The translations under genes and the position numbers were made by a program. The notes beneath the pieces are model-generated. The model was not told the DNA's origin. It searched no databases and worked only from the letters and a program-made list of their open reading frames with translations. This document shows, one piece after another, positions 44,677-49,315 of a DNA stretch of 64,000 nt; positions within the stretch are counted from its first letter, which is position 1; every line of letters starts with the position of its first letter. The DNA is from Pedobacter cryoconitis (GTDB lineage Bacteria; Bacteroidota; Bacteroidia; Sphingobacteriales; Sphingobacteriaceae), in assembly GCA_019352875.1 (NCBI GenBank), contig JAAAFW010000004.1:204522-268521 (forward strand). The letters are read 5' to 3'.

Positions 44677-45066
44677 ATGGAAACAAGAAATATTAATCCC
44701 TGGAAATGGCAGGATGCACGTAGTTACTCACAAGCTGTTGAAGTGAAAAATGTCGAAAGTACGCTGTATTGCTCAGGTCAGGCGGCTATAGATGCAAATG
44801 GAATATCAAGTAACGAAGACATGAAATCCCAACTCATTCAGGCATTGCAGAATCTGGAACAAGTGATCCAGGAAGCCGGTTATGAATGCAAAGGTATTGT
44901 CCGGTTAAATATCTACACAACCTCAACTGCCGAACTTTGGCCTCATTTTGATGTTTTCCAGGACTGGATAGCAAAACACGGTATCAAACAAGCACTGACC
45001 TTGTTAGAAGTAAAAAGTCTTTTTGAAACCTTAAAAGTCGAATTTGAAGCTACAGTAGTGAAATAA
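44677..45066 (+). CDS. Rid (YjgF/YER057c/UK114) family protein
   Basis: A 129-residue protein starting METRNINPW. A GTG at 44578 would add 33 residues that are not part of the fold and would place the palindrome at 44641 inside the gene. Family marks are YCSGQAAIDANG (about residue 35), LIQALQNLEQVIQEAGYECK and VRLNIYTTS. Where RidA enzymes have a catalytic Arg near the C-terminus, this protein reads ALTLLEVKSLFET, so imine deaminase activity is doubtful; it may belong to an Arg-less Rid subgroup. It probably forms a cytosolic trimer. Confidence 0.85.
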   Translation: METRNINPWKWQDARSYSQAVEVKNVESTLYCSGQAAIDANGISSNEDMKSQLIQALQNLEQVIQEAGYECKGIVRLNIYTTSTAELWPHFDVFQDWIAKHGIKQALTLLEVKSLFETLKVEFEATVVK

Positions 45067-45080
45067 TTGAGGTCACAGAC

Positions 45081-45128
45081 AGAACAAAAAGGCTGTAATC
45101 ATATTTATAATTACAGCCTTTTTGTTCT
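45081..45128. terminator. Strong bidirectional terminator
   Basis: A 19-bp perfect stem, 45081-45099 with 45110-45128, 10-base loop, ending in T-rich sequence. It closes the Crp/Rid-family region. Confidence 0.92.
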
Positions 45129-45209
45129 TTTCATTGGTCACTTTCTACATGTGCTGAACAGATTTTCGGATAAGTGTTTTTAATCAGAGGTTAATAAAGT
45201 TATGCTCGG

Positions 45210-45343
45210 GTTTCGTCAAGCTTTGCTTCATACTTCATTCACTGTTTACTCATAGTTCCTTCATACTTCGTTCAATCGAAATTGAAGGAAGTATGAACAG
45301 ACATTGAACATAGTCCGACCAGAGTTCGTAACAATGACGAAAC
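45210..45343. repeat. Structured intergenic element with nested inverted repeats
   Basis: In the 321-base gap before the DoxX gene, GTTTCGTCA (45210-45218) and TGACGAAAC (45335-45343) bracket an inner 17-bp stem with one mismatch (45260-45276 with 45281-45297, loop CGAA). TTCATACTTCRTTCA also occurs twice directly (near 45227 and 45260). It looks like a dispersed REP- or MITE-like repeat. No coding frame is evident. Confidence 0.55.
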
Positions 45344-45387
45344 ACACCTTGTCGTCTGGCGATAAACAGAATGAAGAGATTATTATA

Positions 45388-45858
45388 CTACTTTTTCTTT
45401 TCCCCGATTACGTCATCAATTGAGTAAATACCAGCACCAGTGATCATTATTGATACCAGGCCCGCTATATATAATAAATTAATTTCATATCCCGGAGAGC
45501 CAAAAAGGGGGCCTGACGGAGTCAGGCCTATCGTTTTAATTGTACTGAAACCATAATGTATATGAACACTGAACATGGCAACCAGCATGGTGATTATCAG
45601 CGGAATTGCTGTTATACCAACGTAAAACCCTGAAAATATGGCTAAACCACCGACTAGTTCCACCATGACAGTGACCCATGCGGTAATATGGGGAAGGGGA
45701 GTGTTCAAATAGGTAAGTAATTTTTCAAAACCAACAGGAGCTCCCGTACTCAGTTTCGCCCAACCGTGAGCCATAAACCCAAATCCAATTATCAATCTTA
45801 AGAATAGCGGGGACCATTGTTGCTGTTTTTTCAGGTTTGAATAAAAATCATTAATCAT
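45388..45858 (-). CDS. DoxX-family membrane protein
   Basis: A 156-residue inner membrane protein with four hydrophobic segments. The N-terminal segment PLFLRLIIGFGFMAHGWAKL and the pattern LLTYLNTPLPHITAWVTVMV, ELVGGLAIFSGFYVGI are typical DoxX. DoxX proteins are linked to oxidative and thiol stress in other bacteria. It follows the anti-sigma gene by 75 bases on the same strand, and is probably transcribed with the sigma/anti-sigma pair. Confidence 0.88.
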   Translation of the reverse strand: MINDFYSNLKKQQQWSPLFLRLIIGFGFMAHGWAKLSTGAPVGFEKLLTYLNTPLPHITAWVTVMVELVGGLAIFSGFYVGITAIPLIITMLVAMFSVHIHYGFSTIKTIGLTPSGPLFGSPGYEINLLYIAGLVSIMITGAGIYSIDDVIGEKKK

Positions 45859-45933
45859 ATTTTAAAATTTAGATAAGTTTGACGGGCACAAATAAGTGTG
45901 ACCATTGATGAAATTTAATGGTGTGTTCTTTGT

Positions 45934-46221
45934 TCAATCATCATTGACATGATCCTCAATCTGCTGTTGTAATTTTTTTTTGAATTTTGTGTCTAGTTTC
46001 AACTCTGCATGATTGCGATTAAATAAATTATGTATCATCTTATTCAGCAGAATGCTTTGCTTCATAAACGTGGCACATATTGAGCAGCCTGCCACATGAA
46101 TTTTAAGTTCAGCTTCTTCCTGCAAAGTGATTCTGGCAATCTGTTTTTTTTCAATTAAAAATGTCGCTTTTCTGCAGTTATAGGATATTTTCTTTAATTC
46201 TTCTTTCTCGAAGTTTTTCAT
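45934..46221 (-). CDS. Zinc-finger (ZAS-like) anti-sigma factor
   Basis: A 95-residue protein with Cys 16 and the zinc motif HVAGCSIC (His 42, Cys 46, Cys 49), the HxxxCxxC core of anti-sigma factors of the zf-HC2 type. There is no membrane segment, so it is a soluble anti-sigma factor whose zinc-thiol cluster could sense oxidants. It starts 6 bases after the sigma gene, indicating co-translation with it. Confidence 0.85.
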   Translation of the reverse strand: MKNFEKEELKKISYNCRKATFLIEKKQIARITLQEEAELKIHVAGCSICATFMKQSILLNKMIHNLFNRNHAELKLDTKFKKKLQQQIEDHVNDD

Positions 46222-46227
46222 AGTTCT

Positions 46228-46833
46228 CTAATTTTGGAGCCAGTTTTTCTGAAGGCAAGACCTCAAGTTAACTTTAGCACGGTGAATAATTACCCAGAAA
46301 TTTGATGATGAAACTCTTAACTCACTGCAGATATATGCAGTGCTTTCATCATCCATATGTTTCATTGTAAACACAGCCAGCCATAGTTTCGGTAGCTTCT
46401 TCATGCACGCCCTCAATATTTGCTGAAATTCTTTGTTTTCCAGCGCATCGGCCTGTTCAATACCAAATTCTTTGGGTCTGTGTTCGTGATTCCAATGGCC
46501 ATTTTCATGATCAAAAAAATCATTCTGTTCCTGTTCGGCTTTAATGATATCTGTATCTTTTGCAAAAGCTGACGATTTCTGACGATAAACATCAATAATC
46601 TTGTTTTTTAGGATGGATGTTAACCAGGTCTTTTCGGAGCTTCTGCCTTCAAATTTTGCGGAACGTTCTAATGCCGCTAAAAATGTCTCCTGAACCAAGT
46701 CCCTGGCCAGATCTACATCTTCGATCCTGAGGATAGCGTAGGAATAGAGATAGTCGGCATATTTGCTAACCCATAGATGAGGATCTAATTTTTCGTTCCC
46801 CCTTATTGTAGTTTTATCGTGTTCCTGTTGCAT
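46228..46833 (-). CDS. ECF-type RNA polymerase sigma factor
   Basis: A 201-residue sigma factor. Region 2 is at about residues 25-90 (DLARDLVQETFLAALERSAK, KTWLTSILKNKIIDVYRQ), a His-rich linker (DHENGHWNHEHRP) is near residue 110, and region 4 is at about 140-198 (AYICSELRVSSSNFWVIIHR). It is paired with the ZAS-type anti-sigma factor and DoxX. The upstream region carries a copy of the same promoter pattern found on the opposite strand ahead of the DUF417 gene, so it probably drives its own gene. Confidence 0.92.
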   Translation of the reverse strand: MQQEHDKTTIRGNEKLDPHLWVSKYADYLYSYAILRIEDVDLARDLVQETFLAALERSAKFEGRSSEKTWLTSILKNKIIDVYRQKSSAFAKDTDIIKAEQEQNDFFDHENGHWNHEHRPKEFGIEQADALENKEFQQILRACMKKLPKLWLAVFTMKHMDDESTAYICSELRVSSSNFWVIIHRAKVNLRSCLQKNWLQN

Positions 46834-46887
46834 AAATGAAAATTGCCAATCATGATGAATTTAATTTAGATAAATCCAATTGTATTT

Positions 46888-46919
46888 TTAGTCGGGTTCG
46901 CTTTGAAAACCTTACAAAT
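46888..46919 (-). promoter_or_regulatory. Putative ECF promoter of the sigma factor operon
   Basis: Read on the minus strand: ATTTGTAAGG (46919-46910), 15 bases, CGACTAA (46894-46888). It is the mirror copy of the plus-strand promoter at 46932-46963. Expected transcription start near 46881, giving a leader of about 48 bases before the sigma ATG. Confidence 0.7.
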
Positions 46920-46931
46920 TCTTTAATTTTT

Positions 46932-46963
46932 ATTTGTAAGGGTTAATGTGTTTCTGCGACTAA
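46932..46963 (+). promoter_or_regulatory. Putative ECF promoter of the DUF417 gene
   Basis: ATTTGTAAGG (46932-46941), 15 bases, CGACTAA (46957-46963). Identical boxes and spacer length to the minus-strand copy; the spacers differ in sequence. Transcription would start near 46970, just before the ATG at 46978, which excludes the GTG at 46948 as a start. Confidence 0.7.
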
Positions 46964-46977
46964 GCCATAAAAACAAT

Positions 46978-47397
46978 ATGAAAATTCAAAAAATGGGATA
47001 TGCAGTTGGCGTAATTGCAACATCAGTGGTATTATTATGGATTGGTATTTTGAAGTTTACTGCTGCGGAGGCCGCTGGTATCAAGCCTCTTGTAGAGCAC
47101 AGCTTTTTAATGAGCTGGATGTATAAAATTGCTTCGGTAAATATCGTATCAATTCTAATAGGCCTATTTGAGATAGTTACAGGTCTACTTTTATTACTTT
47201 CTTTCAGGATAAAAATAGCCGGAAAAATAGGGGGGTACCTCGCATTAGTCATATTTTTTACAACAATCAGTTTTCTCGTTACCACACCAGGGATTTGGAA
47301 AAAGGTCGAATTCGTGCCTGTTACCGATTTTTTCATACTAAAAGACCTTGCGTTTCTAGCTATAGCTTTACAGGTAATTGAGCGTCACTCAGATTAG
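46978..47397 (+). CDS. DUF417 (YkgB/RclC-like) membrane protein
   Basis: A 139-residue inner membrane protein with four hydrophobic segments. Marks of the DUF417 family are LLWIGILKFTAAEAAGIKPL and VEHSFLMSWMY, then FEIVTGLLLLLSF and TTPGIWKK, ending in DFFILKDLAFLAIALQV. The E. coli relative RclC belongs to the reactive-chlorine response. The start at 46978 is fixed by the promoter boxes just upstream. Divergent from the ECF sigma gene and sharing its promoter pattern, it is probably part of an oxidant stress regulon. Confidence 0.87.
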   Translation: MKIQKMGYAVGVIATSVVLLWIGILKFTAAEAAGIKPLVEHSFLMSWMYKIASVNIVSILIGLFEIVTGLLLLLSFRIKIAGKIGGYLALVIFFTTISFLVTTPGIWKKVEFVPVTDFFILKDLAFLAIALQVIERHSD

Positions 47398-47411
47398 TGT
47401 ACCCTAAACTT

Positions 47412-47482
47412 AGTTATATAACTGCTAAAGCAGTTGTGTAACTAAGTTTTAGTTGTATAACTGAAATATAAGTTATACATTC
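47412..47482 (+). promoter_or_regulatory. Four phased operator-like boxes upstream of the BlaI-type gene
   Basis: AGTTATATAACT (47412-47423), AGTTGTGTAACT (47432-47443), AGTTGTATAACT (47451-47462) and a weaker AGTTATACATTC (47471-47482) start 20, 19 and 20 bases apart, so all fall on one face of the helix. They end 4 bases before the repressor ATG at 47487 and are the likely binding sites of the BlaI-like protein. Confidence 0.75.
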
Positions 47483-47486
47483 GGAC

Positions 47487-47849
47487 ATGGAAGAATTAAC
47501 TAAAAGCGAAGAAAGGATAATGCAGGTCCTTTGGAAACTGCAAAGCGCATTTGTTAAGGATATTATTGAAGCACTTGAGGAGGAGCCGAAGCCACCATAT
47601 AATACAATCTCCTCAACAGTGAGGTTACTGGAGAAAAAAGGTTATGTGTCCTACAAAGCTTATGGTAAAACTTATGAGTATTTTCCTGCGATAAGTAAGG
47701 CGGAGTATACAAAGACAACTTTCTCGAAAATGTTTGCTGGATATTTTGATAGTTCACCTGCAAGTTTACTCTCATTTATGGTTAGAGAAGAGCAGTTGAG
47801 CGAACAGGATGTTGAAAATCTCAAAGCTTTGATCAAGAAAAAATCCTGA
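47487..47849 (+). CDS. BlaI/MecI-family repressor
   Basis: A 120-residue winged-helix regulator. The start LTKSEERIMQVLWKLQSAFV and the following YNTISSTVRLLEKKGYVSYK are the standard BlaI/MecI DNA-binding signature; the C-terminal third (residues 75-120) is the dimerisation helix region where BlaI proteins are cleaved. It is followed after 2 bases by an M56 peptidase gene, the usual BlaR1-type partner that inactivates the repressor. Four operator-like boxes just upstream suggest autoregulation. Confidence 0.92.
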   Translation: MEELTKSEERIMQVLWKLQSAFVKDIIEALEEEPKPPYNTISSTVRLLEKKGYVSYKAYGKTYEYFPAISKAEYTKTTFSKMFAGYFDSSPASLLSFMVREEQLSEQDVENLKALIKKKS

Positions 47850-47851
47850 TC

Positions 47852-49315
47852 ATGGAATTTATCTATTATCTGCTGAAAGTCAGTATATGCCTGGCACTTT
47901 TTTTTGGAACTTATGTGCTGTTCCTAAAGAAACTAAGCTTTTTTACAGCTAATCGCGTATATCTGCTTGCCACATTACTCCTTAGTTTTACGATCCCTTC
48001 CCTGAAATTTGAGCGAAGTCCGGAGATTACTGCTCCCCGGTTTTTTGGCGACTATGATACTGTTGAGCATATCTCAGGTAAATCACTTTCACCAATAGTG
48101 GTCAATGATGCAACTGGTTTCCTGTCACTTTCAGATTTGTTTTTTTACACTTACCTTCTGGGTACGCTGATATTTTTGTCGGTAAGCTTTTTTAAAATAT
48201 ATCAGTTAATCCGATATGCCCGCTCTGAGTATATCCGGATCGACGGTTTAAAAGTCATTTATAAGAAAAGCGGCTTTGTTAACTGCTCTTTTTTTAATTA
48301 CGTTTTTATAGATCAGGACAGTCTGACAAAAGACGAATTGCAGATACTGTTAACACATGAACGGGTTCATGCGAAACAACTGCATACGCTCGATAAATTG
48401 GTATTATTACTTTGTAAGTCCTTGCTCTGGTTCAATCCAGTTATTTATTGGTATGAAGCGGCTTTAGAGGAGGTACATGAATTTGAAGCCGACCAGATCA
48501 CAGCAACTGAGTTTTCTGCTGATATATACGCAAATCTACTTATTGGACTTGCTTCTAAAAAACAATTAAATCCAGTTCTCCATGGCTTCAGTAAGCAGCC
48601 GCTTAAAACAAGAATTGTCAGGCTGTTTACAAAAACCTCACCTGCCAGCTTTAGGTGGTCTTATTTAACCGTTATTCCATTACTGGTGTGCCTAAGTTGG
48701 ATCTTTGCATTTAAAGCACCTGAGATTTCCCTGAAACAGACTGCCGGGAATAGCGATTTTGTTTTGGTTTTGGACGCTGGCCACGGAGGGACAGACAAGG
48801 GAGCTGAGGGTGGTGGCTTTTTAGAAAAAGACCTGTCATTGAAAATCTTGCAAAAAGTAAACCGGATTGCAAACGAAAGAAATGTTAAAGTTATAACAAC
48901 GCGAAATATCGACCAGTATCTGTCTTTAAAGGATCGTGTTAAGGCAAAGGGTGATCTGTTGATTTCATTTCATTTGAATCAGGATATTGACCCTGAAATT
49001 AATGGAATCCAGCTGCTGGTTGGAAATCCCGGGGCAGATAGCGCAAAACGTAAAAAGTTAGATCAAATAAGCTATCAGTTGTATAAAAACTTGAGCCAGC
49101 TAAATGGAATTGCAGTAGACAACATACCAAAAGAAGTTGAAAGCCTGTATATTCTGAACAGAAGCAGTGCTCCGGCAATTATCCTTGAGCTAGGTTACCT
49201 AAGTAATCTAAATGACAGACGTTATTTGACCGACCCGGTAAAACAGGAAGAATTAGCCAATACAATAGTAACTTCTATAATTGAATACAGCACCATTCTG
49301 AATCGGGAAAAATAA
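47852..49315 (+). CDS. BlaR1-type M56 metallopeptidase fused to an N-acetylmuramoyl-L-alanine amidase domain
   Basis: A 487-residue membrane protein. Four hydrophobic segments (about residues 5-25, 34-50, 95-115, 270-288) surround the zinc protease motif HERVH (His 169, Glu 170, His 173) with a downstream EFEADQ as third ligand, as in BlaR1. After the last segment an Amidase_3 domain (about residues 303-480) follows with all expected elements: DAGHGG (His 311), EKDLSL, LISFHLN and ILELGYLSN. Amidase_3 enzymes cut the amide between N-acetylmuramate and L-Ala in peptidoglycan. BlaR1 has a penicillin-binding domain at this place, so here the extracytoplasmic part may instead bind or cut cell-wall fragments. 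Confidence 0.9.
   Translation: MEFIYYLLKVSICLALFFGTYVLFLKKLSFFTANRVYLLATLLLSFTIPSLKFERSPEITAPRFFGDYDTVEHISGKSLSPIVVNDATGFLSLSDLFFYTYLLGTLIFLSVSFFKIYQLIRYARSEYIRIDGLKVIYKKSGFVNCSFFNYVFIDQDSLTKDELQILLTHERVHAKQLHTLDKLVLLLCKSLLWFNPVIYWYEAALEEVHEFEADQITATEFSADIYANLLIGLASKKQLNPVLHGFSKQPLKTRIVRLFTKTSPASFRWSYLTVIPLLVCLSWIFAFKAPEISLKQTAGNSDFVLVLDAGHGGTDKGAEGGGFLEKDLSLKILQKVNRIANERNVKVITTRNIDQYLSLKDRVKAKGDLLISFHLNQDIDPEINGIQLLVGNPGADSAKRKKLDQISYQLYKNLSQLNGIAVDNIPKEVESLYILNRSSAPAIILELGYLSNLNDRRYLTDPVKQEELANTIVTSIIEYSTILNREK

Follow-up and report, generated by a model that had tools for sequence, protein, structure and literature searches.

Mirror-image candidate promoters between an ECF sigma factor gene and a DUF417 gene in Pedobacter cryoconitis and a predicted methionine and thiol repair circuit

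Described circuits and the genes of the locus

Among described systems, the ECF sigma factor sigmaE of Neisseria meningitidis (NMB2144) with its anti-sigma factor MseR (NMB2145) stands closest to the locus reported here. The meningococcal sigmaE promoter consists of a -35 element GTMAGBWTT, a spacer of 12-13 bases and a -10 element CGTCTAAH, with transcription starting at a conserved A, 6 nucleotides past the -10 motif; the ZAS anti-sigma factor carries Cys4, His30, Cys34 and Cys37, and msrA/msrB is a target of sigmaE (PMC2893595). Oxidative stimuli left sigmaE expression unchanged in Neisseria, which counts against an oxidant reading of such a circuit (PMC2893595). In the absence of MseR, the doxX gene of the sigmaE operon (NMH_2149) rose 35.9-fold, more than any other gene in the rows shown (PMC3240639). 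A second group, ECF16, is represented by SigF/NrsF with mrpX-yedYZ in perchlorate reducers (PMC4623255), and by BcrS/AbcS with bcrXQP in Brucella, which is induced by hypochlorous acid and for which the listed bcrX and bcrS recognition sequences lie on opposite strands, 38 bases apart (PMC8315932). ECF16 systems have a Met-rich peptide, MsrQ and MsrP as effectors, a six-helix DUF1109 anti-sigma factor and a (T/C)GTAAC-N17-CGAA promoter (PMC4623255, PMC8315932).

The window, i.e. the whole stretch of 64,000 nucleotides of Pedobacter cryoconitis DNA that was analysed, encodes on its minus strand an ECF sigma factor of 201 aa (46228..46833; Sigma70_r2 PF04542, Sigma70_r4_2 PF08281), which scores 165.4 bits against TIGR02943 (Sig70_famx1) over residues 27-200 and passes the curated cut-off of 162.2. 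On the same strand lie the genes of a predicted ZAS anti-sigma factor of 95 aa (45934..46221) and of a DoxX family membrane protein (45388..45858; PF07681, 58.5 bits), and doxX is predicted to be co-transcribed with the sigma gene. The predicted ZAS protein had no match in the Pfam search and scores 33.9 bits against NF052368, under the cut-off of 50. Its Cys16, His42, Cys46 and Cys49 are invariant across 13 aligned sequences, which were chosen by hand, the N-terminal Cys lies 26 residues ahead of the His in HxxxCxxC, and no membrane segment is found in it (19-residue hydropathy maximum 1.33 vs threshold 1.6).

On the plus strand, a DUF417 membrane protein of 139 aa with an ATG start is encoded at 46978..47397 (PF04224, 109 bits). 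RclC of Escherichia coli is a DUF417 protein, and an earlier reading of the window, made from its letters and reading frames and referred to below as the sequence-only reading, had called the product RclC-like. Membership in the wider DUF417 family stands, but the score against the RclC model NF040476 (62.9 bits) is far under the cut-off of 275. In E. coli, rclABC is under the transcription regulator RclR, which activates rclC in its oxidised form (PMC7464077). The likeness is that of a DUF417-type membrane protein in an oxidant-response circuit; the difference is that rclC depends on RclR rather than on a sigma factor.

The twin sites in the window and in the genome

The pattern ATTTGTAAGG-N15-CGACTAA occurs in two exact copies in the window, at 46932-46963 on the plus strand and at 46919-46888 on the minus strand, both with 0 mismatches, and no exact copy appeared in 100 dinucleotide-preserving shuffles of the whole stretch (expected 0). 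The mirror-image 32-base matches of the sequence-only reading are therefore present where it had placed them, with identical boxes and with spacers unlike each other (GTTAATGTGTTTCTG and TTTTCAAAGCGAACC); the divergent region, put there at 145 bases, measures 144 bp between the start codons of the sigma and DUF417 genes. A genome-wide search for the box pair found the exact core TGTAAGG-N15-CGACTA twice in the whole genome (4.93 Mb, 99% complete), and both copies are the twin sites. Two core sites with 1 mismatch exist elsewhere in the genome, both inside reading frames. At up to 3 mismatches the window contains 11 core matches vs 12.5 expected, and at up to 2 mismatches the genome contains 39 vs 166 for the boxes read backwards, neither of which is a signal. 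The signal resides in the two exact copies, and the loose matches carry none.

The predicted promoter of the sigma-ZAS-DoxX operon (46888..46916, minus strand) has its -35 box TGTAAGG at 46916-46910 and its -10 box CGACTAA at 46894-46888, and the predicted promoter of the DUF417 gene (46935..46963, plus strand) has the same boxes at 46935-46941 and 46957-46963, each pair with a 15-base spacer. On both strands an A sits 7 bases past CGACTAA. From this conserved A and the neisserial start site, transcription of the sigma operon is predicted to start at 46881 (A, minus strand), and that of the DUF417 gene would start at 46970 (A, plus strand) with an 8-base leader. The DUF417 start at 46978, which the sequence-only reading had fixed from the plus-strand promoter, agrees with this spacing and with the start of a 63%-identical relative (L152), which falls on the corresponding residue. 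Between the two -35 boxes lie 18 bp (AATTCTTTAATTTTTATT; 46917..46934) that are A/T but for one base; together with the A/T-rich columns upstream of the boxes in relatives, this suggests a possible UP element common to both promoters.

TAnnTTTG is the -7 consensus of Bacteroidota. It is absent from the divergent gap on either strand, so no housekeeping promoter of such type lies there. A sigma-70 scan of 45000-47600 gave 6 matches vs 8.3 expected, one of which, a weak one (9/12), lies over the twin region on the minus strand (46907-46879).

The likeness to the neisserial system was judged from the published ZAS positions, promoter and doxX rather than from a sequence comparison. In both, an ECF sigma factor gene is directly followed by that of a small ZAS anti-sigma factor; both anti-sigma factors carry a Cys and HxxxCxxC with identical spacing (26 from Cys to His), without a membrane segment in the window's protein, and doxX belongs to the sigma operon. 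The promoters resemble each other in the -35 GTAAGGTT and in a CGnCTAA-type -10, 12 bases from the extended -35. Written as GTAAGGTTT-N12-CGACTAA, the minus site of the window fits GTMAGBWTT/CGTCTAAH but for A instead of T in the -10 (CGACTAA vs CGTCTAA), and the plus site (GTAAGGGTT) departs at the W of GTMAGBWTT too. Besides, the window's sigma gene, unlike the neisserial one, faces a second, divergent candidate promoter. As for msrA/msrB, they are candidate targets in the window's relatives but not in the window's genome, and the available portions of the neisserial sources contain no mention of DUF417, MsrP-like proteins, DUF1223, Met/Lys-rich peptides or redoxins among the targets.

Conservation of the sites and the genes behind them

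The pattern tested on relatives was derived from the window alone. We took the best 80 of 518 relatives of the sigma factor in named genomes (58-72% identity; Pedobacter, Mucilaginibacter, Chitinophaga, Dyadobacter, Olivibacter, Arcticibacter and others), dropped L199 for its short upstream sequence, and scanned the remaining 79 sigma loci from -350 to +60 of the called start with a spacer of exactly 15. A sigma-strand site with at most 2 mismatches was found at 72 of the 79 loci (at most 1 mismatch at 70, exact at 46), a divergent site at 55, and sites on both strands at 53, so that conservation upstream of sigma orthologues, which the sequence-only reading had named as a check, is present for the site and in part for its divergent twin. 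At the same 79 loci from the best 80 of 518 relatives, spacers of 13, 14, 16 and 17 on the sigma strand gave 1, 1, 0 and 0 matches, and the boxes read backwards gave 1. Among 60 permuted box pairs, 59 yielded at most 1 match; the one exception (GTAAGGT + GCCTAA), with 55, is the motif itself in a shifted register. Chance as the origin of the twin motif is ruled out by the shuffles, the genome scan, the conservation at sigma loci and these permuted-box controls.

The conserved core in the 71 tabulated sigma-strand sites of relatives is TGTAAGG, then wTT, then CGACTAA; thus, of the -35 box given in the sequence-only reading, TGTAAGG is conserved, while its leading ATT is conserved weakly. Alignment of the sites shows nearly invariant boxes, a spacer that is weakly conserved apart from the wTT after the -35, and A/T-rich sequence over the 20 bases upstream of the -35. 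Since the spacer columns are mostly weak and the box columns nearly fixed, the conservation is not mere relatedness. The A at 7 bases past CGACTAA is shared by 48 of the 71 sigma sites and by 49 of the 55 divergent ones.

Seven of the 79 loci (best 80 of 518 relatives) have no sigma-strand site between -350 and +60. At L187, an exact site lies 35 bases inside the called sigma frame, and the sigma start is probably called too early. At L166 and L173 the site precedes redoxin-thioredoxin genes running into sigma, at L192 and L217 it precedes an upstream gene rather than sigma, and at L206 and L228 the locus scan found no site.

The arrangement of the boxes allows another interpretation, in which TGTAAGG and its mirror copy are not promoter elements but the half-sites of a dimeric regulator: TGTAAGG/CCTTACA is an inverted repeat with an 18-bp gap, as expected of a palindromic operator, and the -35 boxes are 15-18 bp apart in 16 of the 53 two-site loci (best 80 of 518 relatives). 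Overall, however, the gap varies from 15 to 153 bp, single copies precede other genes, and every -35 is followed, at a distance of exactly 15 bases, by a CGACTAA-type box of its own. We reject the operator on its variable gap and consider it highly improbable.

In a survey of 151 family genomes, a sigma relative (E <= 1e-25) was found in 36 and an exact site in 29, with 69 sites in total. Since the boxes read backwards also matched exactly 26 times in these 151 genomes, a few of the 69 probably arose by chance. Among the 36 genomes with a sigma relative, 22 have exact sites (62 sites), compared with 7 of the 115 that lack one (7 sites; Fisher p 1.8e-11), and the latter number is about what chance allows. 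One of the exact sites (L145:2458-2485, genome G017) ends 18 bases before the gene of a different ECF sigma factor (2504-2989) in a genome without a sigma relative, which would fit real ECF promoters whose main reader is another ECF sigma factor of the same genome. The co-occurrence with the sigma gene, and the site that 72 of 79 loci (best 80 of 518) carry before that gene, speak against such a reader, to which we assign little probability, and favour the sigma factor of the locus.

The range of the promoter has a limit. In the phylum search, 25 of 40 matched genomes, namely those given a new locus, have no sigma-strand site of at most 2 mismatches (sigma identity 41-53%), which rules out a promoter common to every relative of the sigma factor; two of these loci (L245 and L258) have a 2-mismatch site on the strand opposite sigma. 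Some distant members do have the site: L117 and L119 (42% identity) carry a 1-mismatch site at the sigma start, L118 has a site with spacer 16 at sigma, and L154 (34% identity) has a site before DUF417. Therefore the edge of the promoter's range is not sharp, as judged with five more distant sigma places of the family left out (the second copy of G020, G086, G091, G092 and G109).

All 69 exact sites of the family were fetched, and 61 of them are followed, within 320 bases, by a member of one recurring set of genes, while 8 have no such gene behind them. The targets are sigma (18), a Met/Lys-rich small protein (10), DUF1223 (8), DsbD_N (6), MsrA (6), redoxins (6), MsrB (3), DUF417 (2), cytochrome b561 (1) and YHS (1), with MsrA or MsrB genes following 9 of the 69 sites; these labels come from seeds picked at such sites and are partly circular, and the Met/Lys-rich class follows our own rule. 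The Pfam names of representative targets are independent of the seed labels. Representatives pass the family cut-offs for PMSR, SelR, Oxidored_molyb, cytochrome b561, DUF1223, AhpC/TSA and DsbD_N, whereas the scores for YHS (28.4 bits against a cut-off of 30.3) and for the MXKDX model (26.7 bits against 41) stay below. The genes behind the site in relatives thus include msrA, msrB, MsrP-like operons, Met/Lys-rich peptides, redoxins, DsbD-like proteins and DUF417. The 80 named loci (best 80 of 518), selected because they contain sigma, hold 202 sites with no more than 1 mismatch, which precede sigma (71), DUF1223 (40), Met/Lys-rich proteins (40), redoxins (18), a 433-aa lipoprotein-like protein (10), cytochrome b561 (5), MsrB (4), YHS (4), DUF417 (2) and DoxX (1), with 7 unassigned.

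Some of these genes deserve a separate description. A lipoprotein-like protein of 433-434 aa with no Pfam match recurs near or behind the promoter (L163:7869-9173, L167, L181, L217 and L107). In six genomes (L126, L127, L128, L131, L135 and L137) an exact promoter sequence lies inside the upstream reading frame, about 154-302 bases before a DsbD_N-labelled gene, a label for which Pfam was run on L126 only. G150, a genome of the same genus in about 220 contigs, has an msrA with an exact promoter sequence (L142:1373-1400), and no sigma relative was found in it; its sigma gene may be missing from the assembly.

DUF417 relatives occur at 7 places in 6 of the 151 family genomes, the window's included, and an own-strand site lies directly upstream at 4 of the 7: in the window's genome (0 mismatches), at G015:C100 (0), in G074 (1) and in G095 (2), the last at the noise level of genome-wide scans but about 20 bases before the gene. 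In G082, DUF417 is the last gene behind the exact site of sigma, after sigma, cytochrome b561 and MsrP-like genes. No own-strand site was found near DUF417 in G096, which has no sigma relative at E <= 1e-25, or at G015:C92. Among the 80 named loci (best 80 of 518), four contain DUF417 genes (L158, L163, L197 and L217); at L158 the gene is found on the divergent side, but farther out, after redoxin and thioredoxin genes. An adjacent divergent sigma/DUF417 pair is seen in the window only, among the loci examined, and the divergent partner varies in relatives. DUF417 is therefore a recurrent but optional member of the set.

The proposed circuit and its scope

We propose, with a probability of roughly 80%, that the twin boxes are the -35 and -10 elements of divergent promoters read by the sigma factor encoded at 46228-46833, and that the locus is a Bacteroidota counterpart of the sigmaE/MseR methionine-sulfoxide regulon. 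Conservation and co-occurrence support the proposal of the sequence-only reading that these are recognition sites of the sigma factor, which would drive its own operon and the DUF417 gene. If one sigma factor recognises both promoters, its own operon (sigma, ZAS, DoxX) and DUF417 are predicted to be switched on together. In the resting cell, the ZAS protein would hold the sigma factor through a zinc site formed by Cys16, His42, Cys46 and Cys49, and thiol oxidation of this site would release it. Release of sigma on thiol oxidation is known from RsrA-type ZAS proteins. DoxX and DUF417 may then help the membrane to bear oxidants. Promoter activity, dependence on the sigma factor and an inducing oxidant are thus all predicted. 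The small oxidant-type stress regulon suggested by the sequence-only reading is supported and can be narrowed down, since the relatives point to the repair of oxidised methionine and thiols.

The inducing signal might instead be copper or another metal acting on the same promoters, with DoxX as the remnant of a bufferin-type operon, since bufferins from DUF692-type (MNIO) enzymes chelate excess copper (PMC12452194). With NF050144, the HvfX model for copper-RiPP maturation, the DoxX protein reaches 75.3 bits, but this is just under the cut-off of 80, and an HvfX/bufferin-type DoxX should reach at least 80 bits and have a DUF692 partner, whereas no PF05114 match, i.e. no DUF692 enzyme, is found in the window's genome. 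Besides, the targets in relatives belong to Msr, redoxin and thiol-transfer families. A metal signal is unlikely, though less so than the alternatives weighed above, and we retain oxidised methionine and thiols.

The window's genome contains one MsrA gene and one MsrB gene, with no site of at most 2 mismatches at either; no MsrP-type enzyme was found in this genome, and no site with the 15-base spacer and at most 2 mismatches lies near its DUF1223 relative (45% identical). With no site at its own msr genes and no MsrP or DUF692 enzyme, the methionine-repair reading rests on the relatives, and the regulon predicted for this genome is two transcripts, so that its own set would be cut down to sigma-ZAS-DoxX and DUF417.

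The relatives resemble ECF16 systems in their Met/Lys-rich MXKDX-like peptide, cytochrome b561 family protein and MsrP-like molybdoenzyme. The window differs from them, as far as the available parts of the sources describe them, in having a small ZAS protein without a hydrophobic segment instead of the six-helix DUF1109 anti-sigma factor, and TGTAAGG-N15-CGACTAA instead of (T/C)GTAAC-N17-CGAA. From the shared features, the circuit appears to work like both systems, nearest to the neisserial one in anti-sigma factor and promoter, and it falls outside ECF16 by both of these features.

A wider proposal, for which we see about even odds, is that one ECF sigma/ZAS circuit is common to Pedobacter, Mucilaginibacter, Chitinophaga and Dyadobacter, uses neisserial-type promoters for methionine and thiol repair in the envelope, reaches ECF16/NrsF-like effectors by another anti-sigma factor and promoter, and has been reshuffled by moves of the promoter module. 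If so, its programme would comprise MsrA, MsrB, MsrPQ-like proteins, a sacrificial Met-rich peptide, redoxins, DsbD and DUF417; the hypochlorite effector set of ECF16/NrsF would be reached through a different anti-sigma factor and promoter; gene content would change by moving one promoter module between genes; and the window's DUF417 version would be one of the most stripped-down forms. It also raises the question why the same effectors should be under two unlike sigma/anti-sigma pairs. Shared regulation would link methionine and thiol repair with DUF417, DUF1223, YHS-like and Met/Lys-rich proteins. Few ECF circuits with defined promoters are known in Bacteroidota; for this one, a promoter can be given in sequence, along with a sigma factor, a candidate sensor and a list of targets. 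No report of such a regulon in Bacteroidota was among the matches listed in the open-access literature, as judged from titles and the beginnings of abstracts.

Next to the DUF417 gene, at 47406-47479, AGTTRTRTAACT occurs three times at intervals of 19-20 bp, together with an inverted repeat of 21 nt. These elements lie before a BlaI/MecI-type repressor gene (47487-47849; PF03965) and look like its operators. Directly after the repressor gene, 47852-49315 encodes a predicted BlaR1-type M56 peptidase region fused to an N-acetylmuramoyl-L-alanine amidase (Amidase_3).
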